Shown piece by piece: positions 46,926 to 59,269 of a stretch of 64,000 nt of DNA. The position numbers and the translations under genes are program-made. The notes below the pieces were generated by a model that made no database searches, was not told where the DNA came from, and saw only the letters and a list, made by a program, of their open reading frames with translations. Position 1 is the first letter of the stretch. Each line of letters begins with the position of its first letter. Source of the stretch: Magnetospirillum sp. SS-4 (GTDB lineage Bacteria > Pseudomonadota > Alphaproteobacteria > Rhodospirillales > Magnetospirillaceae); contig NZ_CACVCH010000042.1 of assembly GCF_902729425.1 (NCBI RefSeq), positions 1-64,000 on the forward strand, in the 5' to 3' direction.

Positions 46926-47741
46926 TCAGTAATAGTCCGCCTGGACGCGATAATCCCCGCCGATCACCAGATACTCGCCCTCGCCCTTGAGGGGATGGAC
47001 CGGCAGCAAGGTGTTGAAGAAGGCGATCTTCACCGCCGGCACCCTGACGGTCAGGATGGTGTCGCCGAAACAGTCGGCGACGCCGCGATCGCTGGAGAAC
47101 GACGCCAGGTTGTTGAGGCGCATGACCACGGTCTTGCGGTCCAGGCGCTCGACCACCTGATGCTCGTCGAAGGAATTGATGCCGCGATAAAGCGTGAGAT
47201 GGCTCTGGCCCGGGGCGGCATGCCGGGCCAGCGCCCACTGGCAGAACTCGTAGACCATGTCGAGCTGGCAGTGGATGGAGTTGTTGTGGAACCGGCTCGA
47301 CATCTTCTCTTCGACGTAGCCGGCCCATCCGGCGGTCGAGAAACGGGCGATCATCTCCTTGTGGTAGGTGGGAAACAATCCGAACCGGCTTTCGACCCAG
47401 CCCTTCAGCACCGCGCCCTCGGGGCCGTTGGAATCGAAGCCCCATCCCTTCAGCAGCCGCAGGAAGCTGGCGCGATAGCGCCGCCGCGATCCCCGGACCG
47501 GCTCCTGCTGCTCGGGATCGATGCCGAACATGGCCATCATATAGGCATGGAAGGCCTCGCCGGCGTCGGCCAGCCCTTCGGACTGTTCCAGCATCTCGAA
47601 CATCTGGGCGTTCATCTCGCGCACGCCGGCGATGTGCAGGTCGCGGGGATGGTCGTTGAACGCCACGCTGCCCAGCAGGGCGGTGGACAGTCCCATCAGA
47701 TTGGTGCTGTGGCCGAGATTCCGGCTGCGCTCGTCGATCAT
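46926..47741 (-). CDS. draT: NAD+-dinitrogen-reductase ADP-D-ribosyltransferase
   Basis: Transfers ADP-ribose from NAD+ to an Arg of NifH, switching nitrogenase off in response to ammonium or darkness/energy loss. 271 residues, full length for DraT, with STNLMGLSTALLGSVAFNDHP at the start, LYRGINSFDEHQV (the R-G strand used for NAD binding) and NLASFSSDRGVADCFGDTIL (STS-like strand). It is divergent from nifH with its own sigma-54 promoter, a 17-nucleotide leader and a near-perfect AAGGAGGA ribosome site. draG follows. Confidence 0.96.
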   Translation of the reverse strand: MIDERSRNLGHSTNLMGLSTALLGSVAFNDHPRDLHIAGVREMNAQMFEMLEQSEGLADAGEAFHAYMMAMFGIDPEQQEPVRGSRRRYRASFLRLLKGWGFDSNGPEGAVLKGWVESRFGLFPTYHKEMIARFSTAGWAGYVEEKMSSRFHNNSIHCQLDMVYEFCQWALARHAAPGQSHLTLYRGINSFDEHQVVERLDRKTVVMRLNNLASFSSDRGVADCFGDTILTVRVPAVKIAFFNTLLPVHPLKGEGEYLVIGGDYRVQADYY

Positions 47742-52066: not shown

Positions 52067-52096
52067 GCCCCCCGGAGCCGCGATGCTCCGGGGGGC
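52067..52096 (+). terminator. 12-bp hairpin after nifK
   Basis: Perfect 12-bp stem (52067-52078 with 52085-52096, loop CGCGAT) 27 bases after the nifK stop and just before the 3' end of the opposing pentapeptide gene at 52101. There is no T run, so termination may need Rho; it may serve both genes. Confidence 0.55.
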
Positions 52097-52100
52097 AATG

Positions 52101-53528
52101 CTATTCGCCGGCCTTGCGCGGGCGAAAGACGCCGGGCGGCAGGCGGGTGGTCATGTCGCACAGCGACTTCTCGATCTGGGCCTGGGTCAGGCCGTCGACC
52201 TTGGACAGATCGGCCTCGCGCAGGTCGGAACCGATCAGGATGGCGCCCTTGAGGTCGGCGCCGGCCATCCTCGCCCCCGACAGCCGGGCGCCCGACAGGT
52301 CCGAGCCCCGGAGGATGGCGCCTTCGAGGTTGCTGAGATCCAGCTTGGCGTGGCGCAATGCCGCCACCCCCAGGTTGGCGCCGGCCAGATCGGCGGCCGA
52401 CAGGGTGGCGTAGCGGAAATCCGAACCGTCCAGGCGGGCGTCGGCCAGACAGGCGTCGGACAGGTCGACCTCGCGGAAGGTGGCGTTGGCGAGAATGGCG
52501 CCCGACAGATCGGCACCGGCCAGATCCATGCCCTGGAAGGTGGCGCGCTTGCCCTCAGCCCCCTTGGTTTGCAGCCATTGAAGATGCTCGGCCACCACCG
52601 CCGACAGGTCCAGGCCGGCGACATCGCCGCCCTTGCGGGGCTTGCGGCCGGTCTTTTCCAGCGCCTCCTTCCATTGCAGGCGCCGCTTCTCGGCCCGCTT
52701 GCGGGCGGCTTCGGCCTCGGGATCGGGTTTCAGGGGGGCCAGGTCGGCGGCGTCCAGCTTGCCGCCACTCGGCCGTCTGGCCGGGGCCATGTCGTCCAGG
52801 TCGAGCTTGCCGCCGCCCGGCCGTCTGGCCGGCGTCAGGTCGCCGTGGGCGAGACGTCCGGCGGGTGCCGAGGAAGAGGGGGCGGACGCCGGAGGGGAGC
52901 CGGTCATGGAAGCCAGAGCCGGGCCGGGCCGGGCGGCGGACGGAACGATTCCCTTCGCCTCCAGCCGGGCGGTCAGGGCGGCGATCTCGGGGATGACGGT
53001 GGCCGCGGTGGGGGACGGCGTCTCCACCGGCGGCAGGTCGGGCAGCGGATCGGGGTCCTTGATGTAGCTGACCCTGGGTCTGGCCTGGGCTTGGCTTGGC
53101 TTTGGCATCCGGCACGGGGCGGCCAGGGTCTCGGCCACCCGGTGGGCCAGTTCATGGCCTGAAACCGGCTTGGGAATCACGCCCTCGATGCCGATATCCT
53201 TGGCGCGGCTGACGGCATCGGCTTGCGGCGGCGGCGCCACCACCAGAACCGGCACCCGATCGTGGGGGGTGCCGGCGGGCCGGCGCAGCGCCTCGATCAC
53301 CGCCAGGCCGCTTTCCGGGCCGGCGCCCAGGTCGACCAGCACCAGATCGACGCCGCGCGCCATCAGTCCGGTGGTTTCGCCGGGATCGCTGAACGGCGTG
53401 ACATCCTTGACGTTGAGCTTGCGGAAGGTCTGGCGGGCCAGGAAACGGAACTGATCGTCCAGACCGAACACCAGAAGCCGGACGGGCTTCCAGTCGGTAT
53501 CCGGATTGCCGCCGGTGGGATGACGCAT
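52101..53528 (-). CDS. receiver domain-pentapeptide repeat fusion protein
   Basis: 475 residues. An N-terminal receiver-like domain (about 15-137) with LLVFGLDDQFRFLARQTF, a phospho-acceptor-like Asp in LVLVDLGAG, and IPKPVSGHEL with the conserved Lys. A Pro/Ala-rich linker (about 140-265) contains two similar segments, PARRPGGGKLDLDDMAP and PARRPSGGKLDAADLAP. A charged helix follows (about 270-300), then a pentapeptide-repeat region (about 325-455) with A(D/N)LSG-type repeats such as MDLAGADLSGAIL and LSGARMAGADLKGAIL, forming a right-handed beta-helix. Function is unknown; the fusion is uncommon. Convergent with nifK. Confidence 0.85.
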   Translation of the reverse strand: MRHPTGGNPDTDWKPVRLLVFGLDDQFRFLARQTFRKLNVKDVTPFSDPGETTGLMARGVDLVLVDLGAGPESGLAVIEALRRPAGTPHDRVPVLVVAPPPQADAVSRAKDIGIEGVIPKPVSGHELAHRVAETLAAPCRMPKPSQAQARPRVSYIKDPDPLPDLPPVETPSPTAATVIPEIAALTARLEAKGIVPSAARPGPALASMTGSPPASAPSSSAPAGRLAHGDLTPARRPGGGKLDLDDMAPARRPSGGKLDAADLAPLKPDPEAEAARKRAEKRRLQWKEALEKTGRKPRKGGDVAGLDLSAVVAEHLQWLQTKGAEGKRATFQGMDLAGADLSGAILANATFREVDLSDACLADARLDGSDFRYATLSAADLAGANLGVAALRHAKLDLSNLEGAILRGSDLSGARLSGARMAGADLKGAILIGSDLREADLSKVDGLTQAQIEKSLCDMTTRLPPGVFRPRKAGE

Positions 53529-53629
53529 GTAATGCTGTGCCCTTGTCCTTTTTCTTCCCCGCCCTCACCATAGTGCAAATCCGGCCGGGATGGAAACATC
53601 CCCGGCCCCAGGGAGAGACGACCGGCCCC

Positions 53630-54493
53630 ATGACCTCCGCCACCTTGCATCGCGCCCGGGCGCTGGCGGCGCTGCTGCCGCCGCTGCTGGTGGCCGCCGG
53701 CCGGGTCGCCGCCACGGTGGCGCCGGGCAGCCACGGCCGCCGGCGGACCGGGCCGGGCGAAACGTTCTGGCAATTCCGCCGCTCGATGCCGGGCGATGCC
53801 GCCTCCGTCATCGACTGGCGGCAATCGGCGCGTTCGGACCACCTGTTCGTGCGCGAGACCGAATGGGCGGCGGCACGGACGGTCTGGCTGTGGCGCGATG
53901 CGTCCGCCTCCATGGACTGGCGTTCGGACGAACGCCTGCCCACCAAGCGCGACCGCGCCGAATTGCTGATTCTGGCCCTGGCGGCGCTGCTGCTGCGCGG
54001 CGGCGAGCGGGTGGCGCTGCTGTCCGGCGCCCAGGCCCCGGTCTCGGGCGCCGGCGCCCTGGGGCGGCTGGCGGCGGTCATGGCCCGGGACGGGGACGCC
54101 GCCGCCGTCCCGCCGCCGGTTCCGCCCCGTCACGCCACCTTGGTGCTGGTCGGCGACTTCCTGGATCCGCTGGACGAGACCGCCGCCCGCATCCGCGCCC
54201 TGGCGTCCGGCGGCGCCGCCGGCCATCTGATCCAGGTTCTCGATCCGGCCGAGGAAGCCCTGCCCTATGACGGACGTATCCGCTTCGAGGGAATGGAGGG
54301 CGAAGGCGACATGCTGGCGCGCCGCGCCCAGGACCTGCGCCCTGCCTATCGGCGGCGGCTGGCGGCTCATCGTGACGGCCTCGCCGCCCTGGCGCGCAAC
54401 GCCGGCTGGAGCCTTGCCCATCACCGCACCGACCAGCCGCCGCTGCACGCCCTGCTGGCCCTGCACGCCCGCCTGGCCGGAGGCGGCCGATGA
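53630..54493 (+). CDS. DUF58 domain protein
   Basis: 287 residues with the DUF58 core: RRRTGPGETFWQFRRSMPGD, then IDWRQSARSDHLFVRETEW, followed by the vWA-like WLWRDASASMDW with a modified metal-site DxSxS (DASAS). DUF58 proteins act with MoxR AAA+ ATPases and vWA/Bat proteins in envelope or metal-centre maturation. ATG 53630 starts the conserved domain after GGGAGAG. The MoxR gene that usually precedes it is absent; upstream lies the opposing receiver-pentapeptide gene. Its stop overlaps the next start by four bases. Confidence 0.85.
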   Translation: MTSATLHRARALAALLPPLLVAAGRVAATVAPGSHGRRRTGPGETFWQFRRSMPGDAASVIDWRQSARSDHLFVRETEWAAARTVWLWRDASASMDWRSDERLPTKRDRAELLILALAALLLRGGERVALLSGAQAPVSGAGALGRLAAVMARDGDAAAVPPPVPPRHATLVLVGDFLDPLDETAARIRALASGGAAGHLIQVLDPAEEALPYDGRIRFEGMEGEGDMLARRAQDLRPAYRRRLAAHRDGLAALARNAGWSLAHHRTDQPPLHALLALHARLAGGGR

Positions 54494-57201
54494 CTCCGTT
54501 CCTGCCGGGCCTGGTCTTCGCGGCGCCGTGGGCGCTGGGCCTGCTGCCGCTGCTGCCGCTGCTGTGGCGGCTGCTGCGGGTGACGCCGCCGGCGCCGCGC
54601 CGGCTGCGCTTTCCCGCCATCCGCCTGCTGCTGGGGCTAAGCGGGCGCGAACAGCAGGCCGAGGCGACGCCCCCCTGGCTGCTGGCCTTGCGTCTGGCCC
54701 TGGCCGCCTGCCTGATTCTGGCGGCGGCGGGGCCGGTCGTCAATTCCACTCCCGTCGCCGGCCATGCCGACGGGGCCATGCTGGTGGTGGTCGACGACGG
54801 CTGGGCCGCCGCCCGCGACTGGCCGGAGCGCATCGCCGCCCTGGACATCCTGCTGACCGAGGCCCAGCGCGCCGCCCGGCCGGTGCTGCTGCTGACCACC
54901 GCCCCCCCTTCCGATGGTTCTCCCGTGGCCGTGTCGCGGCTGGGCCCGTCCGCCGGACTCCGCTCCGTCCTGGCCGGATTGAGCCCCAGGCCGTGGGCCG
55001 TCGACCGCAAGGCCGCGGCGGCGGCGCTGGCGCGGCTGTCCGGAGAGCGGGTGGGGCGGACGGTGTGGCTGAGCGACGGCCTGCACGACGAGGGGGCCGC
55101 CGAACTGGCGCGGACCCTGCAAGGCCTGGGCGGCGGGCTGGAACTGATGACCGGCCGGACCGGCCGCCAGTTGTTGCCGCCGGCGGAGGATTCGCCCTCC
55201 GAGCGGCTGGCGGTCCAGGTCCGGCGTCTGATCGCCGCCTTGCCGGAAACCCTGGCGGTGCGTGGGCTGGATGCCTCGGGAACCGTGCTGGTCCGCGAGG
55301 AGGTCACCCTGGAGGCCGGCGCGGCCGAGGCGACGGTGGTCCTCGCCCTGCCCTCCGACCTGCGCAACCGGCTGGTCCGCCTGGATATCGAGGGCGAACG
55401 CTCGGCCGCCGCCGTGGTTCTGCTGGACGAACGCTGGCGCCGCCGCGCGGTGGGGCTGGCCGATGGCGGCCGAAGCGCCGCCGCCGCCCTGCTCGATCCG
55501 CTGCATTACGTGGAGCGGGCGCTGGCCCCCCATGCCGATCTGCGGCGGGGGGACCTGGACGGGTTGCTGGCCGAGGATGGCCCCGAAGTGCTGATCCTCG
55601 CCGACCGGCCGCTGCCGCCCGGCCCCCTGGCCGAGCGTCTGGCCGCCGGCATCCATCAGGGCCGGGTGCTGATCCGCTTTGCCGGGCCGCTGCTGGCCGA
55701 GGCCGCCGCCGGACGGGACGGCGCCGGCGACGCGCTGTTGCCGGTTCCCCTGCGCGGCGGCGGCCGCGCCCTGGGCGGCGCCATGTCGTGGACCGCTCCG
55801 ATGGCGCTGGCACCGTTTCCCGATCACGGTCCGCTGTCCGGTCTTGCCATACCCGCCGACGTGGCGGTGCGTTCGCAATTGCTGGCCGAGCCCGGCCTCG
55901 ACCTCGCCGCCCACAGCTGGGCGACGCTGAGCGACGGCACGCCGCTGATCACCGCCCGGCGTCACGGCAAGGGCTGGATCGTTCTGGTTCACACCACCGG
56001 CAACGCCGAATGGAGCAATCTGGCGCTGTCCGGGCTGTTCGTCGACATGCTGCGGCGGCTGGCGGGTCTGGCCCGGGGCGGGCGGGGCGGGGCCGCCGCC
56101 GGGCCGCTGGCGCCGCTGGAGGTTCTGGACGGTTTTGGCCAGGCGCACCCGGCCGCCGGCGGGATCGCCGCCCTGACGGTGGCCGAATCTCCCCGGCCGG
56201 GCCCTCGTCATCCCCCCGGCCTTTACGGAACCGGCGAGGCGAGGCTTGCCTTCAACCTGGGGCCGGCGCTGGCGCCGCCCCGGCCGCTGGACCCGCCGCC
56301 CGGCGCCATCCTCTCCGGACTGGAGGGGCGGCGGGCCGGGCTCGACCTCGGACCGGGACTGCTGGCGGCGGCGCTGCTGCTGGCCGTGGCCGACGCCCTG
56401 GCCAGCCTGTGGCTGCGTGGCGCGCTGTTCCGGCGGGCGGGAACGGTGGCGGCGTTGCTGCTGGCGCTGCCGGTCTCCCCCGCCGGGGCCGGCGCGGCGG
56501 ACAGCTTCGCCCTGGACGCCGGGTTGTCCACCCGGCTGGCCTGCATCCGCACCGGCCAGCCGGCGCTGGACCGCGATTGCCTCGCCGGGCTGAGGGGGCT
56601 GTCGGCCGCCGTCGGCCGCCGCTCCACCGCCCAACTGGCCGAGCCGGTGACGGTGGATGCCGAGCGCGATCCGGTCGTGTTCTTTCCTCTGCTGTACTGG
56701 CGGGTCGGGCCGCTTCAGCCGCCCCTTCCGGCCGCCGCCGTCGAGCGGCTCAACGCCTACATGGCGCGGGGTGGCCTGATCGTCGTGGATGCCGGTGACG
56801 ACAACGACGACGCCGGCCGTGCCCGCCTGCGCGAACTGACGCGCGGGCTGGTGCTGCCGCCGCTGGAGCCGCTGGCCGCCGATCATGTGCTGAACCGCTC
56901 GTTCTATCTGCTGAAGGAAAGTCCCGGCCGCTGGGACGCGCCGCCGCCGTGGGTCGAACGTCCCAACGGCGGCGGCGGCAACGACGACGTCTCGCCGGTC
57001 GTCGTCGGCAACGCCGACTGGGTGGGGGCCTGGGCGGTGGACGAGTATGGCCGGCCGCTTCACGCGGTGGTGCCGGGCGGCGAGCGCCAGCGCGAGATCA
57101 GCCTGCGTTTCGGCGTCAATCTGGTGATGTACGCCCTGACCGGCAATTACAAGGCCGATCAGGTCCACCTTCCCGCCATCCTGGAACGGGTGGGCCGATG
57201 A
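54490..57201 (+). CDS. BatA-like/DUF4159 membrane protein
   Basis: 903 residues. BatA N-terminal region with two transmembrane helices (about 5-27, 62-85) and LRRLRFPAIRLLLGL-type linker, a vWA-like central region (VVVDDGWAAARDWPERI has a degenerate metal site), a second membrane segment pair (about 620-670) and a C-terminal DUF4159 domain (about 680-900: FFPLLYWRVGPLQPP, RGGLIVVDAGDD, LNRSFYLL). This architecture is standard in alphaproteobacterial MoxR-DUF58-DUF4159 clusters. The molecular role is unknown. Overlaps the DUF58 gene by four bases and is followed by another membrane protein. Confidence 0.85.
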   Translation: MTPFLPGLVFAAPWALGLLPLLPLLWRLLRVTPPAPRRLRFPAIRLLLGLSGREQQAEATPPWLLALRLALAACLILAAAGPVVNSTPVAGHADGAMLVVVDDGWAAARDWPERIAALDILLTEAQRAARPVLLLTTAPPSDGSPVAVSRLGPSAGLRSVLAGLSPRPWAVDRKAAAAALARLSGERVGRTVWLSDGLHDEGAAELARTLQGLGGGLELMTGRTGRQLLPPAEDSPSERLAVQVRRLIAALPETLAVRGLDASGTVLVREEVTLEAGAAEATVVLALPSDLRNRLVRLDIEGERSAAAVVLLDERWRRRAVGLADGGRSAAAALLDPLHYVERALAPHADLRRGDLDGLLAEDGPEVLILADRPLPPGPLAERLAAGIHQGRVLIRFAGPLLAEAAAGRDGAGDALLPVPLRGGGRALGGAMSWTAPMALAPFPDHGPLSGLAIPADVAVRSQLLAEPGLDLAAHSWATLSDGTPLITARRHGKGWIVLVHTTGNAEWSNLALSGLFVDMLRRLAGLARGGRGGAAAGPLAPLEVLDGFGQAHPAAGGIAALTVAESPRPGPRHPPGLYGTGEARLAFNLGPALAPPRPLDPPPGAILSGLEGRRAGLDLGPGLLAAALLLAVADALASLWLRGALFRRAGTVAALLLALPVSPAGAGAADSFALDAGLSTRLACIRTGQPALDRDCLAGLRGLSAAVGRRSTAQLAEPVTVDAERDPVVFFPLLYWRVGPLQPPLPAAAVERLNAYMARGGLIVVDAGDDNDDAGRARLRELTRGLVLPPLEPLAADHVLNRSFYLLKESPGRWDAPPPWVERPNGGGGNDDVSPVVVGNADWVGAWAVDEYGRPLHAVVPGGERQREISLRFGVNLVMYALTGNYKADQVHLPAILERVGR

Positions 57202-57211
57202 CGAGCGATCC

Positions 57212-59269
57212 ATGAACCAGACGATCAGTTTGGCGCCGCTGGTTTCCTGGCCATGGCTGGCGGCCCTGGCCGTCGCCGCGACGCTGGTGGCCGGCCTGGG
57301 GCTCGCCCTCGGCGCGCGGGGCGGCGGCTGGCGGGCGCTGGTGCTGGGGGTTTTGGTGCTGGCGTTGGCCAATCCCCGGCTGGTGAGCGAGCGGCGGACC
57401 CCGTTGCCCGACACCGCCCTGGTGGTGGTGGACCAGACCCTGTCGCAGGAGGTCGACGGGCGCGCCGGACAGGCCGAGACCGCCCTGGCGGAGGTTCAGG
57501 AACGCCTGGGCCGGCTGGCCGGCCTGGACGTGCGGGTGGAGAGGGTCTCCGGCACGCCGGGGCAGGACGAGGGAACCCGACTGTTCGCCGCCGTCGACCG
57601 GGCCCTGGCGGAGGTGCCGCGCCGCCGGCTGGCCGGAGTGGTGATGATCACCGACGGCCGCGTTCACGACGTCCCCGCCGACCGGGGCCGCTCGCTCGAC
57701 GCTCCGGTGCATGTGCTGCTCACCGGACGCCCCGGCGAGCGCGACCGGCGGCTGGTGCCCGGCAAGAGTCCCGGTTTCGGACTGGTGGGGCGCGACGCCG
57801 CCTTGTCGTTCCGGGTGGAGGATCAGGGAGGAGAGGGCGACGCCACCGTGACGGTGCGGCTGGACGGCCAGCCGCACGCCACCATCAGCGTGCCGCTCAA
57901 CCGCGACGCCACCATCGAGATTCCCATCCGCCACGCCGGCCAGAACGTGGTGGAACTGGAGGTTGAGCCCGGCCCCGGCGAGATGTCGCCGGCCAACAAC
58001 GCCGCCGCCCTGGTACTGTCGGGAGTGCGCGACCGCCTGAAGGTGCTGCTGGTCTCGGGCGAGCCCCATGCCGGCGGGCGCGCCTGGCGCAATCTGCTGA
58101 AGGCCGATCCGGCGGTCGATCTGGTTCATTTCACCATTTTGCGTCCGCCGGAAAAGGACGACCGCACCCCCATCCACGAATTGTCGCTGATCGCCTTTCC
58201 GGTTCGGGAGCTGTTCGAGGAGAAGTTGTACGACTTCGATCTGGTGATCTTCGACCGCTACCGCCGCCGGGGCGTGCTGTCGGCCGGCTATTACCGGAAT
58301 CTGGCCGAATATGTCCGCCGGGGCGGAGCCTTGCTGGCGGCGGTGGGGCCGGAATTCGCCGAGGCCGGCGGCATGGGCGAGTCCGCCCTGACCGAGGTGC
58401 TGCCGGCACGGCCCGCCGGCACCTTGACCGAGCACCCGTTCCCGCCGCGCCTGACCGAGGCCGGGCGGCGACACCCCGTCACCTCGGGCCTGGCCGGATC
58501 GCGCCCGGGCGACGCTCCCTGGGGGCGCTGGATGCGTCAGGTCGACACCGCGCCGCCCCGCGGCCTGTCCGTCATGACCGGCGCCGGCGACCGGCCGCTG
58601 GTGGTGCTGGACCGGGTCGGCGACGGCCGTGTCGCCATGGTGCTGTCCGACAGCATCTGGCTGTGGGCCAAGGGGTGGGACGGCGGCGGTCCCCATGACG
58701 AACTGCTGAGGCGTCTCGCCCACTGGCTGATGAAGGAACCGGACCTGGAGGAACGTTCGCTGCGGGCCGAGGTCGCCGCCGGCTCGCTGAGCGTCATCCG
58801 CCGCTCGCTCGATTCCGGCGACGCCGAGGTGACCGTCACCGGACCCGATGGCGTTGGCCGGCCCCTGACCCTGCACGACCGCGGCGACGGCAGCGCCGCC
58901 GGCGCCATGCCGGTTTCGCGATCCGGATTGTGGCGGGTGGAGGACGACGGCGGCCTTGCCGCCATCGCCGCCGCCGGTCCGGCCTCTCCGGTCGAAATGG
59001 CGGAGCTGACCGCCGATTCCGGGGCACTGGCTCCGGTGGCCGAGGCCAGCCGGGGCGGCCTGGCCTGGCTGTCGCAAGGCGGGGTGCCCGGGTTCCGCCG
59101 GATCTCCGCCGGGGGCGCGGCCGCCGGACGCGGCTGGATGGGGCTGGTGGACAAGGGCGATTACCAGGTCGACGGCGTGCGCGACATTCCGCTGCTGCCG
59201 GCCTGGGCCCTGCTGCTGCTGGGACTGGGCGGCCTGCTGGCGGCATGGCGTCGCGAGGGCCGGGAATGA
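57212..59269 (+). CDS. membrane protein with glutamine-amidotransferase-like domain
   Basis: 685 residues with transmembrane helices at the N-terminus (about 12-35, 40-55) and C-terminus (about 660-678). Between them are a vWA-like region (LVVVDQTLSQ, VVMITDGRVHD) and a class I glutamine-amidotransferase-like fold (VLLVSGEPHAGG, FDLVIFDRY, RRGGALLAAVGPEF) that lacks the catalytic Cys-His-Glu set. Proteins of this type close the MoxR-DUF58-DUF4159 cluster. It lies ten bases after the DUF4159 gene. Function unknown. Confidence 0.8.
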   Translation: MNQTISLAPLVSWPWLAALAVAATLVAGLGLALGARGGGWRALVLGVLVLALANPRLVSERRTPLPDTALVVVDQTLSQEVDGRAGQAETALAEVQERLGRLAGLDVRVERVSGTPGQDEGTRLFAAVDRALAEVPRRRLAGVVMITDGRVHDVPADRGRSLDAPVHVLLTGRPGERDRRLVPGKSPGFGLVGRDAALSFRVEDQGGEGDATVTVRLDGQPHATISVPLNRDATIEIPIRHAGQNVVELEVEPGPGEMSPANNAAALVLSGVRDRLKVLLVSGEPHAGGRAWRNLLKADPAVDLVHFTILRPPEKDDRTPIHELSLIAFPVRELFEEKLYDFDLVIFDRYRRRGVLSAGYYRNLAEYVRRGGALLAAVGPEFAEAGGMGESALTEVLPARPAGTLTEHPFPPRLTEAGRRHPVTSGLAGSRPGDAPWGRWMRQVDTAPPRGLSVMTGAGDRPLVVLDRVGDGRVAMVLSDSIWLWAKGWDGGGPHDELLRRLAHWLMKEPDLEERSLRAEVAAGSLSVIRRSLDSGDAEVTVTGPDGVGRPLTLHDRGDGSAAGAMPVSRSGLWRVEDDGGLAAIAAAGPASPVEMAELTADSGALAPVAEASRGGLAWLSQGGVPGFRRISAGGAAAGRGWMGLVDKGDYQVDGVRDIPLLPAWALLLLGLGGLLAAWRREGRE

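Follow-up and report, generated by a model that had tools for sequence, protein, structure and literature searches.

The window analysed here is a stretch of 64,000 nucleotides from Magnetospirillum sp. SS-4. On its reverse strand, exactly at 52101..53528 (-), lies an open reading frame with an ATG start and a TAG stop that encodes a protein of 475 amino acids. We refer to this pseudo-receiver/pentapeptide-repeat protein as RPP, a label coined in this analysis. The gene is genuine, its GC content by codon position (0.74/0.54/0.86) being typical of coding sequence in GC-rich DNA, and the architecture of a receiver and pentapeptide repeats is confirmed. In Pfam, Response_reg matches residues 26-131 with 30.8 bits (gathering threshold 30.2, E 3.4e-7), and Pentapeptide reaches 95.4 bits against a gathering threshold of 20.2.

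The receiver fold spans residues 15-137 (53118..53486 (-)) and is followed by a linker of 162 residues (143-304; 52617..53102 (-)), in which Ala and Pro are the most abundant residues and the AF2 confidence is low. Within the linker the sequence contains two 16-residue repeats of the form ARRPxGGKLDxxDxAP (52734..52829 (-)), namely ARRPGGGKLDLDDMAP at residues 234-249 and ARRPSGGKLDAADLAP at residues 250-265. A helix region that forms the N-cap and contains H315, W318 and G326 (52545..52607 (-); repeat alignment and AF2) precedes the pentapeptide right-handed β-helix of 23 repeats, which covers residues 329-445 (52194..52544 (-)) in Pfam, the alignment, AF2 and VIA-align. The protein ends with a conserved tail GLTQxQ...TRLPPG including a C-cap helix at about residues 449-460 (52104..52193 (-); alignment and AF2). 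The original prediction of a receiver joined by a repeat-bearing, Pro-rich linker to a pentapeptide β-helix was thus borne out by Pfam, AF2 and the two linker repeats.

The AF2 model of the full protein was built from three sequences, and its overall pLDDT is low (54.5). Within the receiver the pLDDT is about 60 at residues 11-40, which comprise β1 and the pocket, and 71-87 at residues 41-140. The receiver region has the full (βα)5 order in this model, and residues 15-136 superpose on RR468 (3dgf) with a Z of 17.3 and an rmsd of 1.9 over 119 residues (VIA-align), the match running from residue 15 on 2 at its start to 136 on 121 at its end. The N-terminal domain is therefore predicted to fold as a receiver, as had been expected. 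When the repeat part was predicted alone a pLDDT of 71 was obtained, and VIA-align matched it to solved pentapeptide proteins with Z between 12 and 20 (HetL 16.7, MfpA 16.5). The repeats are of the uninterrupted A(D/N)LXX type and, from sequence and AF2 model, form a right-handed quadrilateral β-helix. HetL, MfpA and Qnr share this β-helix fold with RPP and are stand-alone pentapeptide proteins.

The convergent neighbour of the RPP gene encodes NifK (828 bits against an NCBIfam cut-off of 427), the next two genes past nifK belong to the nitrogenase component 1 and NifH families (Pfam), and draT, for the dinitrogenase reductase ADP-ribosyltransferase, lies divergent from nifH at 46926-47741 (-) (Pfam). 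The location beside nifHDK, convergent with nifK, had thus been predicted correctly. The stop codons of nifK and the RPP gene are separated by 61 bp, with a perfect 12-bp hairpin between them (52067..52096); a stretch of 65 nt here folds with -39.4 kcal/mol (z -3.5). The hairpin is perhaps a shared terminator of both genes. No T run follows it and it is absent from the output of the terminator scan, which gave a single site, inside the RPP gene. The scan for sigma-70 promoters found none. On the other side, divergent from the RPP gene, 53537-59269 holds DUF58, BatA/DUF4159 and a 685-aa protein, a cluster of the BatA/aerotolerance type. These DUF58/BatA genes were not found at other homolog loci; apart from one locus with matches to M23 and bactofilin and a second with a match to M23, the search with the flanking genes gave nothing.

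The position beside nifHDK and draT would fit a nitrogen-fixation accessory, i.e., a scaffold or protector of nitrogenase, and the fold matches to MfpA, Qnr and HetL (Z about 15-17) would fit a DNA mimic acting on gyrase. We consider such a role very improbable. The fetched flanks of 99 homolog loci were searched by tblastn with NifH, NifD, NifK and DraT, and none gave a match; the shorter flank had a median of 5.3 kb, and 77 of these loci were covered by 3 kb or more on either side. In addition, the hairpin separates the RPP gene from nifK. The nif neighbourhood is local to the SS-4 locus and not conserved, and the link to nitrogen fixation implied by the original prediction is not supported. 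RPP scores far below the NCBIfam cut-offs for MfpA (45.6 bits against 360) and Qnr (31.6 bits against 240), which sets it apart from these proteins, and its rod is short (23 pentapeptides) with a net charge of -6. DNA mimicry was set aside on rod length, charge and family scores. Of the two roles suggested for the pentapeptide part, scaffolding fits and DNA mimicry is left without evidence.

In the receiver of RPP three of the five conserved catalytic residues are missing. According to the family alignment G22-L23 (53460..53465 (-)) replace the acidic pair (D12-D13 of CheY) and A98 (53235..53237 (-)) replaces the conserved Ser/Thr; the equivalent of the phospho-acceptor Asp, D66 (53331..53333 (-)), and the conserved Lys, K120 (53169..53171 (-)), remain. 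The Pfam match starts at profile position 9, past β1 and the acidic pair, and the strand 16-21 and the helix from residue 25 of the AF2 model agree with G22-L23 at the position of this pair. The nearby D24-D25 lie downstream of the pocket, because outer relatives read VDRDEQFRF where RPP reads FGLDDQFRF. D66 would fall on D53 of RR468, the Asp changed in the RR468 mutant entries, provided that the structural match is gap-free to residue 66. A pseudo-receiver has been defined in a 2025 review as a recognised receiver lacking at least one of the five conserved residues (PMC12632262), and by this definition the SS-4 receiver, judged from its aligned residues, is a pseudo-receiver retaining the Asp.

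Not one of 90 aligned RPP-family receivers, the one from SS-4 included, has the complete set DD/D/T/K. These comprise a table of 79 receivers (SS-4 RPP and 78 loci, excluding L038, L039, fragments and receiver-less homologs) plus L038, L039 and nine homologs from other orders, the latter eleven also without any complete set. In the table of 79, Asp and Lys alone are kept in 28 receivers, 42 keep the first acid and lack both the second acid and the Asp, and 9 have other incomplete sets; the phospho-acceptor Asp is present in 32 and missing in 47. The near rows conserve D66 in 30/30 and K120 in 28/30 cases. Three of the nine homologs from other orders carry the first acid, Asp, Ser and Lys and lack only the second acid, and a fourth carries both acids, Asp and Lys and lacks only the Ser/Thr. 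Since these four lack one residue each, the ancestor of the family may have been a working receiver, and as their sites are near-complete some members may still be phosphorylated.

As a control, unrelated receivers of the same loci were read in the same HMM columns. The set started at 40 rows, from which L079, L135, L134 and two receivers of L132, all incomplete, were set aside by eye as RPP-family receivers, and 5 of the 35 unrelated receivers did not span all columns. The spanning receivers keep D/E-D-D-K in 30/30 and Thr/Ser in 27/30 cases.

RPP might still be a true if inefficient response regulator, in which a cognate kinase would phosphorylate D66 and the signal would move the pentapeptide effector. 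Such a regulator would agree with the conservation of D66 and K120 in the near rows, with a histidine kinase gene directly downstream in 5 near loci and with the homologs from other orders that lack a single residue; changes at DD, T or K, moreover, do not always abolish phosphorylation according to the 2025 review (PMC12632262). However, RPP lacks both acids and the Ser/Thr, the acids are kept in all spanning unrelated receivers, and the Asp itself is missing in more than half of the 79 aligned receivers, which makes a phosphorylated regulator improbable. Of the original proposal of a plausible phospho-Asp the residue itself stands, in a site without acidic pair and Ser/Thr. Control by phosphorylation is not supported: the pocket is missing (G22, L23, A98), the very finding that had been named as its refutation.

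At a threshold of E<=1e-20 RPP matches are present in 45 of 55 genomes of the host's taxonomic family and in 100 of 297 genomes sampled from its order, SS-4 included in both counts. In the class sample outside the order, full-length or split full-length matches occur in 8 genomes of four families, with one further partial match. The survey of the domain pair thus found receiver and pentapeptide helix conserved across an order and beyond; this is an old, conserved family. Among the 60 listed of 295 PDB profile matches, taking the best stretch of each, none joined a receiver to pentapeptide repeats, and no such fusion was found in the literature matches listed (titles and starts of abstracts, with subscription journals mostly outside the scope). 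RPP is a conserved receiver-pentapeptide pair for which no description was found in the literature searched.

Of the 82 aligned rows of the repeat region 78 have no gap and none has an insert, and so the number of coils is fixed in these rows; the table excludes L038, L039, fragments, L122 and the receiver-less L124-L131, and some of the rows left out may differ in rod length. H315, W318, G326, Q451 and P464 are invariant across the 82 rows; when the group of homologs linked to motAB (described below) is set aside, D370, R372, R392, H393 and D410 show almost no variation. A conserved docking face on the rod was considered and rejected, the face-level shuffle not being significant in 57 rows outside the motAB group (2250/5000 as low); the same test gave 73/5000 in a hand-picked subset of 16 rows and 0/5000 for face 4 in 25 related motAB rows. 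In two homologs (L086:800-1960 (-) and L088:5292-7004 (+)) a hemerythrin domain instead of a receiver stands before the same pentapeptide module, and some others have no sensor domain visible by eye. This suggests that the rod with its caps provides a constant output, preceded by an exchangeable input domain. The receiver-less homologs of family f31 (L126-L131) have a rod with a histidine-rich ADLH variant of the repeat.

The Cle proteins of Caulobacter have FliM as a binding partner and work through c-di-GMP, which is bound by a tandem [YF]xGP[DE][RK]R region after the CheY-like receiver, and their activation is independent of the phosphorylation residues (PMC5677366). The RPP family shares with them the CheY-like receiver, the motility context in a part of the family, and the Arg-rich motif, which 16 of 98 rows carry immediately behind the receiver (SS-4 RPP and L040-L136, receiver-less rows included). 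The motif is also present in 5 of the 9 homologs from outside the order, and in family f29 decayed forms, YFGPAR and YFGPSP, were seen in the two rows printed. Unlike Cle, SS-4 RPP lacks the motif at its expected place, the start of the linker, as do all 32 near loci (L038-L069, thus also L038 and L039). The RPP family further differs from Cle in its long linker and its pentapeptide domain: as extra domains of Cle proteins the Cle paper gives cNMP-binding, hemerythrin and adenylsucc_synt, pentapeptide repeats are not named there, and the word pentapeptide does not occur in its main text (PMC5677366). Among the short receiver proteins found with the RPP-family profile 17 of 19 HMM matches (17 loci) have the motif. 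From these sequence features, the RPP receiver is likely to have descended from Cle-like, CheY-like receivers of Alphaproteobacteria.

Two further receivers can be compared with RPP. The second receiver of PleD (D2), which gave the best sequence match among the natural solved receivers in the matches listed, lies between another receiver and a GGDEF domain and serves as an adaptor. FrzS comes from a different lineage and is not known to have a pentapeptide domain. This motility protein of Myxococcus has an atypical receiver fold that works without phosphorylation (PMC1974792), and it is this that it has in common with RPP.

In the families f29 and f17 a motA-motB pair lies before the RPP homolog and on the same strand in all 25 homologs fetched, 19 genomes being from f29 and 6 from f17. 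These genomes are the ones that passed the E<=1e-20 threshold; the sample also contained f29 genomes without a match. The distance from the MotB stop to the first ATG of the homolog is at most 118 bp in 22 cases, 248 and 424 bp in two and 2.5 kb in one. Labels for histidine kinases, MCPs, OmpR, MotA and MotB were assigned by BLAST to one Pfam-checked reference each, and MotA and MotB were confirmed by Pfam in one locus. In 5 of the 6 f17 homologs the Arg-rich motif and motAB occur together. Reciprocal best hits with one f29 genome speak for orthology, the best match of the f29 protein in the SS-4 genome being RPP with 106.5 bits vs 40.6 for the next. In the tree of the repeat domain, which has long branches and weak deep support, the homologs linked to motAB fall into one group, and the linkage may therefore be a single rearrangement.

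Other flagellar genes are found near the homologs L082, L087 and L094 of family f4, which are convergent to an flhA cluster with putative flhF and flhG, and in the host's family L052 and L068 are convergent to such a cluster with a kinase gene in between; FlhF and FlhG are our reading of Pfam SRP54 and ParA-type matches beside the FHIPEP (FlhA) gene. In 8 of 16 other genomes of the host's genus an MCP gene is next downstream on the same strand at 67-160 bp, with a NIT sensor in the Pfam-checked case. A HisKA kinase is encoded by the next downstream gene in five genomes of genus g15, and in another group 6 of 11 loci have an OmpR-like regulator no more than 112 bp upstream; both neighbours fit an ordinary two-component partnership too. 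In 27 of the 32 near loci an ABC exporter is encoded divergently, and SS-4 RPP itself has no motility neighbour at its locus. The proposed survey of gene neighbours therefore gave flagellar or signalling genes for a part of the homologs, and nifHDK for none of the 99 loci. FlhA was found in 90 of the 100 order genomes with an RPP match vs 159 of the 197 without (hand-tallied from match lists, 159 by subtraction), a weak co-occurrence with a Fisher p of 0.045 that ignores kinship.

The variation of the neighbours by clade, with ABC exporter, OmpR-like regulator, histidine kinase, PFK and YjbQ, together with the RPP matches in 10 order genomes without FlhA and the weak flagellar co-occurrence, could mean that RPP is a generic pseudo-receiver scaffold for some signalling complex, the motAB adjacency in one clade being there by chance history. 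The consistency of the motAB group across two families, the MCP neighbours in the host's own genus and the Cle-type motif in relatives argue against this, and we regard a generic scaffold as rather unlikely.

We tentatively favour, as plausible though far from certain, that RPP is an adaptor made up of a Cle-like pseudo-receiver and a pentapeptide part, with the flagellar motor or the chemosensory machinery as its probable site. Because some relatives adjoin flagellar-motor genes, a motility or signalling adaptor is more likely than a part of nitrogen fixation; adaptor function, motor as site and c-di-GMP as ancestral switch are what we infer from the family, and a motor or chemosensory role of the SS-4 protein itself would be by analogy with these relatives. 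In the adaptor reading a pseudo-receiver would sit on a flexible linker before a rigid pentapeptide rod with conserved caps, the receiver surface would dock on one partner and the rod would hold another, most likely at the flagellar motor or the chemosensory machinery. To our knowledge few pentapeptide proteins have a known cellular partner. In relatives with the Arg-rich motif the switch would be c-di-GMP and not phosphate. As the SS-4 lineage is without the motif, RPP would there be constitutive, with its level as the means of control, or else the binding of a partner would switch it, e.g., of the chemoreceptor or kinase whose gene adjoins that of RPP in some relatives. The presence of the phosphate pocket, of the c-di-GMP motif and of the Asp varies across the family, and the length of the pentapeptide output stays fixed. 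The activation of pseudo-receivers was called a mystery in the 2025 review (PMC12632262).

A more specific form of the adaptor, to which we give a small chance, is that proteins of receiver, Arg-rich motif and pentapeptide repeats constitute a class, so far undescribed, of stator regulators gated by c-di-GMP; the SS-4 lineage would have lost the c-di-GMP switch and kept the adaptor. The receiver with its Arg-rich peptide would then sense c-di-GMP and dock at the motor, and the rod would engage the MotAB stator from the same operon as a clutch or brake. Since the RPP gene follows motA-motB in two families, a stator function is directly testable.

Two further observations concern receiver proteins. 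The SS-4 genome encodes six receiver-like proteins in which the receiver is followed by [YF]xGP[DE]RR (L186-L190; contigs C4, C78, C79, C89 and C99). Their receivers look degenerate by eye, and from their sequence they are possible c-di-GMP effectors; the bare DNA pattern of the motif is, with 5 matches in this genome vs 4 in the control, little above background. On one short contig (L132) three RPP-family members, with receiver and pentapeptide genes, stand in a row, possibly as a local expansion.
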